This document shows positions 54,656-56,962 of a stretch of DNA of 64,000 bases, in pieces. Source of the DNA: an uncultured Bacteroidota bacterium (GTDB lineage: Bacteria; Bacteroidota; Bacteroidia; Flavobacteriales; Flavobacteriaceae); the NCBI GenBank assembly GCA_902586905.1, contig CACIJH010000002.1, positions 61,849-125,848 of the forward strand. The letters are read 5' to 3'. Position numbers and translations under genes: made by a program. The first letter of the stretch is position 1. Each line of letters starts with the position of its first letter. The notes beneath the pieces were generated by a model that was not told the origin of the DNA, ran no database searches, and worked only from the letters and a program-made list of their open reading frames with translations.

Positions 54656-55238
54656 TCACCCATGCATCGTTTCTTTAGTGCCAAAGCTTTTGATCAATTC
54701 CCCTTCAAAGGCGAGTAGAGCTTTCCATTTTTGATCGGTTTTTTCTCGTCCGCCGTAGGTACGCGCAAACTGTAAAAAACATAGTGTAGTGATTCGCCTC
54801 GCTGATCATCAGCTTTTTGTAAAAACGAGCCAACTGTTTGTCTTCCAACTTCTCTGAAAGCAATCGAAAACGCTCACAACTACGCGCCTCAATCAATGCC
54901 GCATAAAGCAACTTATGCACCAAATGATCCTCTCGACTACCTCCCTTTGGGAAAAACTGCATCAATCGATTCACATATTCATCCTTACGCTCTCGTCCTA
55001 AGGCAAAGCCTCGCTCAATCAAAAGATAATGCACCATTTTAAAATGACTCATTTCCTCAGCAACCAAATCTATCATGGCTTGTACCAGTTCGGTTTTTTC
55101 TGGATAGCCAATGATAAAAGAAATGGCTGTACTTGCTGCCTTTTGTTCGCAATAGGCATGATCAACCAATATTTCTTCGATGTTTTTTTCAACAATATCC
55201 ACCCAGCGAGGGTCGGTTGGGAGCTGTAGTCCTAGAAT
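54656..55238 (-). pseudogene. miaE: miaE (tRNA 2-methylthio-N6-isopentenyladenosine hydroxylase), frameshifted and lacking a standard start
   Basis: MiaE is a diiron enzyme that hydroxylates ms2i6A37 of tRNA. Homology extends both ways beyond the 165-residue track ORF. Upstream, in frame, are LGLQLPTDPRWVDIVEKN codons preceded by ATT (55238) where ATG is expected. Downstream, after the T6 run in ATGTTTTTTACAG (54779-54774), the other frame continues as FLQFARTYGGREKTDQKW and ends TKETMHG. Removing one T restores a 193-residue protein, the usual MiaE length. Diiron ligands (EEMSHF, EARSCERF, EANHY) are intact. A decayed gene or a sequencing error in the homopolymer are both possible. The dnaX stop lies just upstream. 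Confidence 0.85.
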
Positions 55239-55243
55239 GATGT

Positions 55244-56962
55244 TTAATTTAAATCCAAATCAAATTCCTTTCGAATATCATCAACCACAGGGTTGATTTT
55301 AACCAGTTGTTCGTATTTGTCCTTTGGCGTATAGATATAGTTTTTTTGCTCTTCTTCATTCACTTGAATCACAAGTGTCAGCAAATCATTTTTTAGTTCA
55401 TCCCCCAAGGCTTCCAACACCTTTGCTTTTTCGCTTTCAAGCTCTACTTTGTTGGTTTTGTTTGGAAAATTGAGATGAATTTCTGTTTTATTCTTTAATC
55501 TGGGGATATCAAGGTTTAAAAGTGCAGCTAGGTTATACTCACCTTCAGATTCCAGCTTGGAAGACAATTGCTTCCATGCAGCTTCCAAACGCTCTTGCCC
55601 AACTTGTTGATCTCTTATGCTTTTTCCATTCGAAGGTTGATTGGCCTTTATGCTTTTTTGAATGGCGATACTGGAGAGAGACAAGCCCGAAACCCCTTTT
55701 GGCTTGATGTTCAGCTCGATGGGCTTTTCGTCAACTTGCTTGTCAGTCGTCGTGGGGCTTTCGACTTCGGTATGCGCTGGTGTTGTTACTTCTTCAACGA
55801 CAATCGCAGGTTTTTCTTCAACAACTGCTTGCTTTTCTTCTGTTATTGTTGGTTTTTGTTCTCTTTTTGTTGGAGGCTTGATGTAGGGTTTACTCTTTTT
55901 TTTTTCGTCAGTAGCAGATGCGATTTGCATCAAACAGAGTTCGACGTGTAGCCGTTGATTTTTTGAACTCTTATAACTCAGGTCACAAGCATTTGCCAAA
56001 GCAATTGACTTTTCAAGAAAATCGAGTGATGCTGTTTCCGATTGTTCCAAAAACTTCTTCTTGGTTGCTTCTCCAACTTCCAACAATTCAACAGTATCCT
56101 TATGCCTACACATCCACAAGTCACGCAAATGACTTGCAAGACCAACAATAAAATGATGTCCATCAAACCCCTTTGATAAGATTTTATCAAAAGACAAAAT
56201 AACTTCTCGAATATTCCCTTCGATCAAGTCTTTGGTGATATGCAAATAGGTGTCAAAATCGAGTATACTCAGGTTGACCGAAACGTGTTGGGCAGTGATG
56301 GTTTCATTGGAAAAACTGACAATCCGATCAAAGATAGAGAGGGCATCTCTCATGGCACCATCGGCTTTTTGTGCAATCAAATGAAGTGCTTCTTCTTCAG
56401 CCTTAATACCTTCACTTTCAGCTATTTTTTGGAGATAGTTTTTTGCATCAGTCACGCTAATACGCTTAAAATCATAGATTTGGCAGCGTGAAAGTATAGT
56501 GGGGATAATTTTGTGTTTTTCTGTTGTTGCCAGTATAAAAATGGCATGTGCAGGAGGTTCTTCCAAGGTTTTCAAAAACGCGTTGAAGGCAGCTTGTGAA
56601 AGCATATGAACCTCATCGATGATATAAACTTTGTAGTCTCCAACTTGTGGGGGGATACGTACCTGATCGATTAGATTTCGAATGTCCTCTACAGAGTTGT
56701 TGGATGCAGCATCTAACTCAAAAATATTGAAGGCAAAATTGTTGTCATCAGCGCTCTCATCGTTTTTGGAATTGATCTTTTTGGCAAGGATTCTCGCACA
56801 GGTTGTTTTGCCCACGCCTCGAGGTCCACAAAACAACAGGGCTTGTGCAAGATGGTCAGTTGCAATTGCATTATCAAGTGTTTTGGTAATAGACTCTTGA
56901 CCAACAACATCTTCAAACCGCTGCGGGCGATATTTTAATGCCGATACCACAAAAGGTTCCAT
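55244..56962 (-). CDS. dnaX: DNA polymerase III subunit tau/gamma
   Basis: DnaX is the clamp-loader ATPase. The 572 residues have AAA+ motifs: Walker A CGPRGVGKTT, Walker B YIIDEVHMLS and sensor-1 LATTEKHKIIPTILSRCQ with the Arg finger region SRCQ. Domain III ends near residue 345. The Cys4 zinc knuckle between Walker A and ELDAASNNSVEDIRNL is replaced by a Cys-free acidic segment (NSKNDESADDNN). A Pro/Lys/Glu-rich linker follows, then a C-terminal tau-like domain. At codons 353-356 an A10 run ends in A AAA AAG; in the -1 frame GAG TAA follows at once, giving a 357-residue gamma-like product. It is divergent from rnpB. Confidence 0.95.
   Translation of the reverse strand: MEPFVVSALKYRPQRFEDVVGQESITKTLDNAIATDHLAQALLFCGPRGVGKTTCARILAKKINSKNDESADDNNFAFNIFELDAASNNSVEDIRNLIDQVRIPPQVGDYKVYIIDEVHMLSQAAFNAFLKTLEEPPAHAIFILATTEKHKIIPTILSRCQIYDFKRISVTDAKNYLQKIAESEGIKAEEEALHLIAQKADGAMRDALSIFDRIVSFSNETITAQHVSVNLSILDFDTYLHITKDLIEGNIREVILSFDKILSKGFDGHHFIVGLASHLRDLWMCRHKDTVELLEVGEATKKKFLEQSETASLDFLEKSIALANACDLSYKSSKNQRLHVELCLMQIASATDEKKKSKPYIKPPTKREQKPTITEEKQAVVEEKPAIVVEEVTTPAHTEVESPTTTDKQVDEKPIELNIKPKGVSGLSLSSIAIQKSIKANQPSNGKSIRDQQVGQERLEAAWKQLSSKLESEGEYNLAALLNLDIPRLKNKTEIHLNFPNKTNKVELESEKAKVLEALGDELKNDLLTLVIQVNEEEQKNYIYTPKDKYEQLVKINPVVDDIRKEFDLDLN
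55890..55905 (-). other. dnaX slippery site (A10; A AAA AAG AGT AA)
   Basis: On the coding strand GAC GAA AAA AAA AAG AGT AAA: ten consecutive A (55905-55896) including the zero-frame heptamer A AAA AAG. A -1 slip reads GAG TAA and ends the chain with Lys-Glu. The +1 frame also stops, 18 codons later. The site falls just after clamp-loader domain III. Escherichia coli dnaX uses the same heptamer followed by AGTGA to make gamma, and Thermus uses a long A run with transcriptional slippage. Confidence 0.7.

Follow-up and report, generated by a model that had tools for sequence, protein, structure and literature searches.

The dnaX gene of an uncultured member of the Flavobacteriaceae carries ten consecutive adenines on its coding strand, at the border between the part common to the gamma and tau proteins and the linker specific to tau. 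The in vivo relevance of gamma, the short clamp-loader subunit, is an old matter of debate. The question raised by this locus is whether the A10 run is a programmed site from which one gene yields both proteins, and whether RNA polymerase or the ribosome would be responsible for the change of frame. The window is the whole stretch of 64,000 nucleotides that was analysed.

Two precedents are described in passages of PMC1088944 and PMC5009743: -1 ribosomal frameshifting is established for dnaX of Escherichia coli, and transcriptional slippage occurs on an A9 run in dnaX of Thermus thermophilus (Larsen et al. 2000). Genes in which dnaX is divided into two ORFs at an A10 run were found with GeneTack in 2013 (17 genes from 12 genera, including Chlorobi; PMC3711429); all have a -1 frameshift at the DNA level, and transcriptional realignment was proposed. 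The same paper gives values from E. coli reporters for another gene family, with a shift of 10% at 7 A, 40% at 9 A and 63% at 11 A. Slippage and frameshifting in dnaX are already known, as are two-ORF genes with A10. In the open-licence literature, PMC3711429 was the only relevant source on dnaX slippage or frameshifting in Bacteroidetes, Bacteroidota or Flavobacterium, and no report was found of a phylum-wide extent, of three tau frames, of repeated movement of the frame or of losses in Bacteroidales. The phylum-wide extent, the moving tau frame and the loss of the run in some Bacteroidales appear to be new.

The A10 run of the window

The features of the gene are the following.

55244..56962, minus strand: dnaX, with the zero-frame product tau of 572 aa (ORF, NCBIfam and Pfam)
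55906..56962, minus strand: ATPase domains and domain III, common to tau and gamma, ending just before the run (Pfam PF12169)
55896..55905, minus strand: A10 run, the putative slippery site, with codons GAA AAA AAA AAG (sequence; a T run on the forward strand)
55890..55895, minus strand: GAG TAA in the -1 frame, Glu then stop, the predicted end of gamma (1 codon to the stop)
55244..55889, minus strand: tau-specific linker and C-terminal region, read only if the frame is kept (217 open codons)

The ORF matches the NCBIfam model TIGR02397 (dnaX_nterm) with 379 bits for a cut-off of 250, and PRK14971 with 671 bits, just below the cut-off of 685 bits. Pfam matches are DNA_pol3_delta2, DNAX_ATPase_lid and DNA_pol3_gamma3, and the match to domain III (PF12169) covers residues 231-358. 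The part common to gamma and tau is 64-84% identical to that of family and order members. The ORF directly downstream of dnaX (54705-55202, minus strand) looks by eye like a tRNA hydroxylase of the MiaE type.

The sequence at positions 55887-55910 of the minus strand reads GAC GAA AAA AAA AAG AGT AAA CCC, and both A_AAA_AAA and A_AAA_AAG are found in the zero frame within the run. Past the run, 217 codons precede the stop in the zero frame, 1 in the -1 frame and 17 in the +1 frame, the +1 closure coming late by comparison with most relatives (median 5). The predicted gamma has 357 aa and the C-terminus KKKE; a -1 shift of the ribosome and an mRNA with one additional A would both lead to this same protein. 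Recomputation confirmed what the earlier note had read from the DNA, namely the A10 sequence with its coordinates and frame, its location just after clamp-loader domain III (the Pfam match ends at residue 358), the quick stops in both alternative frames and the product of 357 residues ending in Lys-Glu.

The homopolymer by itself is unremarkable, and the real evidence is its conservation. In the window, A9 has 4 matches where shuffling leads to an expectation of 11.4, indicating that, if anything, the window avoids long runs. A pattern search followed by inspection of every site found eight runs of at least A10 in the assembly (1.35 Mb, about 70% complete). That of dnaX is the only one on the sense strand within a gene, the others being intergenic or just ahead of a start codon.

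A run of at least nine A is conserved across most of the phylum

The survey drew on dnaX of named genomes and of relatives at the level of genus, family, order, class and phylum; once duplicates had been taken out, it comprised 280 distinct sites. Close to the end of domain III, the longest A run has at least nine bases in 231 of the 280 genes and at most seven in the other 49, and A8 was not found at this site in any of them. The 231 runs consist of 35 A9, 175 A10, 18 A11 and 3 longer ones. Control windows of the same size from the N-terminal region of these genes (n = 560) reached A8 at most, these being conserved-domain sequence and thus an imperfect match for a linker. In the evenly spread class and phylum draws taken alone, the run has at least nine A in 133 of 171 genes, and it is found in all 41 genomes analysed from the order and family of the window.

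All 539 whole codons lying inside the runs are AAA, whereas 29% of the Lys codons in the N-terminal domains of the same genes are AAG (log10 p about -110). The run is also retained in loci of 60-68% GC, and the flanking columns are nearly without information, except for the two bases that bound the run. The exclusive use of AAA, the retention in GC-rich loci and the uninformative flanks therefore argue for selection on the nucleotides. The survey shows that a run of at least nine A is selected across the phylum, whatever its codon phase and whatever the frame of tau. The run exceeds both chance and what the protein would need, as expected for slippage of the Thermus type. The interruption of the Lys codons by AAG, which the earlier note had named as evidence to the contrary, was not found in any of the runs, and the conservation of the run and of the -1 stop that it had proposed to look for was borne out, the -1 frame being closed early in most genes with tau in the zero frame (see below).

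Presence or absence of the run requires at least 25 changes on the tree. The four named Bacteroidaceae and Prevotellaceae all lack it (A3-A7). Bacteroidales loci without it are L275, L248, L269, L274, L267 and L252, and four families outside the class, from the phylum draw, also lack it (f73, f79, f81 and f85). Two sister genomes of one genus (G130 and G094; L094/L117) have near-identical sites, with A10 at L104 and A7 at L117; the difference could stem from the loss of one Lys codon or from a homopolymer error in the single-contig assembly. In G039, a genome of symbiont size (0.3 Mb) from the order of the window, the DnaX open frame (C1:272548-273558) has only 346 codons; no tau C-terminal match is present among the matches listed, and the protein is apparently of gamma length only.

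Codon phase and the frame of tau

The run occurs in all three codon phases (151, 53 and 27 genes) and is followed by G in 106, by C in 64 and by T in 61. Past the run, the tau part is found in the zero frame of 161 genes, the -1 frame of 64 and the +1 frame of 6. In the 70 genes of the latter two groups, about 30% of those bearing a run, a zero-frame stop occurs a few codons past the run, and the region matching the tau-specific part is intact in another frame. In these reversed genes the template frame is that of gamma, and tau would need the slip. The tau/gamma arrangement proposed in the earlier note thus holds for the 161 genes with tau in the zero frame and is inverted in the reversed ones. 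The two-ORF dnaX genes found with GeneTack have the same arrangement as the 64 relatives with tau in the -1 frame; unlike them, the window has tau in the template frame, and the survey finds all three frames, and the site itself in most of the phylum.

The frame of tau has switched at least 37 times on a FastTree tree of the part common to gamma and tau, compared with 62-64 switches for shuffled labels (first three shuffles). Homopolymers are error-prone and many of the genomes are metagenome assemblies, so that the frame break of the reversed genes could be attributed to sequencing or assembly errors in the run, or the tau part could be a separate gene with its own start. One gene with tau in the +1 frame (L233, A9) is indeed compatible with a miscount of one base. 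As a general account, this explanation is very improbable. A10 makes up 51 of the 64 genes with tau in the -1 frame and 120 of the 161 in the zero frame; run length is therefore independent of the frame, and errors in it cannot account for the switch. Isolate genomes alone require 11 switches. Within one genus, the switch goes together with the deletion of a few bases outside the run (L312 tctagcaac, L064 tagcaac; also L320); among the relatives checked for the +1 arrangement, the genus of G231 was informative. With regard to a separate start, the first ATG in the tau frame of reversed genes lies a median of 94 codons past the run, whereas a conserved (Y/F)IIP(P/A) motif is present a few codons past the run, in whichever frame tau uses. 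The distant ATG and the early in-frame motif therefore indicate that tau of the reversed genes is read through the run. Between close pairs of reversed genes, substitutions in the tau frame are mostly at third codon positions, and this frame is evidently under constraint at the protein level.

It is rather likely that the dnaX site of Bacteroidota acts as a frame-neutral joint. Transcription of the run would supply all three frames and nearby indels would be tolerated, so that tau would have drifted from frame to frame at least 37 times while A10 stayed constant, with selection acting on the presence of both products and not on the choice of the one that the template encodes. The repeated movement of tau would then be a natural experiment in which a slippage site frees a gene from a fixed frame, and the loss of the run in some Bacteroidales would mark a change in how, or whether, gamma is made. 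Annotation is expected to show dnaX as two broken pieces for roughly one in four of the genes surveyed.

Transcriptional slippage and ribosomal frameshifting

The A10 run is probably a programmed slippage site from which two DnaX proteins are made, with RNA polymerase slipping on the run. The polymerase would generate mRNAs with 10 A's and others with A's added or lost. Those with 10 or 10+3n A's would encode tau, one extra A would bring the ribosome into the frame with a stop one codon on, and hence lead to gamma, and one A lost or two gained would result in the 17-codon tail. The commonest slip is presumed to be the insertion of one A, which would also account for the -1 frame being the first to close and the one in which most reversed genes have tau. 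For the organism of the window, slippage, its rate and a functional gamma are inferred.

The window resembles Thermus dnaX in its uninterrupted A run, in having tau in the template frame and in the nearby stops in both other frames, an arrangement in which any slip other than by triplets would give a short product. It has A10 where Thermus has A9, in either case an A/T homopolymer of at least nine in the coding sequence, and its slippage is predicted from sequence. Of its stops, at 1 and 17 codons, that of the +1 frame is the looser. In 84% of the genes with zero-frame tau a stop follows within 2 codons in the -1 frame (null 21%), and in 92% of them one follows within 10 codons in the +1 frame (null 47%; p = 3e-24). 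Both frames are closed within 10 codons in 92% of relatives, for a null of 27%. Only slippage that matters in both directions would lead one to expect closure of the +1 frame.

The junction of E. coli K-12 dnaX, GCAAAAAAGAGTGA, is alike to that of the window. Both have A_AAA_AAG followed in the -1 frame by a Glu codon and a stop, and the pair of products is similar. The earlier note had the site reproducing the E. coli arrangement. This applies to the junction and to the genus of the window, where the heptamer A_AAA_AAG and the following stop are present in 10/10 genes, every run is in phase 1 (or equivalent) with G as the next base, and the -1 frame is closed at the same position in 10/10, as gag, gga or gac and then a stop. 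It does not extend to the phylum, where the run is free of phase and G, C or T may follow. The window also differs from E. coli in having A10 instead of A6, in the closure of the +1 frame across its relatives, and in the stimulators. No Shine-Dalgarno-like stimulator was found at about 10 nt in the upstream sequence of the window, GCATCTGCTACTGACG, in agreement with the earlier note, and no conserved one across genes, as such a motif occurs within 20 nt upstream of the run in 18 of 229. An upstream GGAG that directly adjoins the run in many Flavobacteriaceae was rejected as a candidate Shine-Dalgarno stimulator: its spacing is wrong, it encodes a conserved Gly-Glu, and the genus of the window lacks it. 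No stable stem-loop was found downstream in the window, the 40 nt past the run folding with z = -0.2, whereas the E. coli control (40 nt) gave -19.4 kcal/mol and z = -2.2. The mean z over 229 genes was -0.23, compared with -0.10 for control stretches (p = 0.04), a weak signal that was judged too small to matter.

Two further explanations were weighed against slippage. Gamma could be made by programmed -1 ribosomal frameshifting on A_AAA_AAG as in E. coli, the longer run being incidental or adding slipperiness. The nearly identical junction (A_AAA_AAG AGT TAA-type), the heptamer retained throughout the genus and the preference for the -1 frame, which is the first to close and carries tau in 64 of the 70 reversed genes, are all expected from it, and the conserved heptamer, the bias of 64 to 6 and the late +1 closure of the window speak against slippage as the sole reading. 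Frameshifting alone would nevertheless predict an unclosed +1 frame, seven bases in one phase, G after the in-phase heptamer and probably stimulators. The runs have nine A or more and never eight, whereas frameshifting needs seven; G follows 71 of 146 runs with an in-phase heptamer and 35 of 85 others (p = 0.34); and the six genes with tau in the +1 frame are out of reach for a -1 shift. Transcriptional slippage, which the earlier note had suggested as the main mechanism, therefore fits better, with its run of at least nine in any phase, both frames closed and no conserved stimulator. Frameshifting as the source of gamma is unlikely, and in the genus of the window -1 ribosomal slippage on A_AAA_AAG may possibly contribute. 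The run could also be nothing but a Lys-rich linker encoded by AAA in an AT-rich genome, with tau as the only product. The window is AT-rich and several A9 runs are expected in it by chance, and as 49 genes lack the run it is not essential to DnaX. That such a linker would suffice is hardly credible, as long A runs are rarer than chance and dnaX has the sole sense-strand A10 within a gene, GC-rich relatives retain A10 uninterrupted by AAG, and 70 genes require a change of frame for tau to be read at all.

Comparative genomics strongly supports the proposal of the earlier note that one dnaX would yield both tau and gamma through this site. The persistence of A10 across the phylum, despite the general avoidance of runs and also in GC-rich genomes, suggests that both forms have long been under selection, and culturable flavobacteria are ready experimental systems. 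The longest runs are those of L008 and L324 (A14), L265 (A13) and L291 and L313 (A12); tau is in the zero frame in the two A14 and the two A12 genes, and in the -1 frame in L265.
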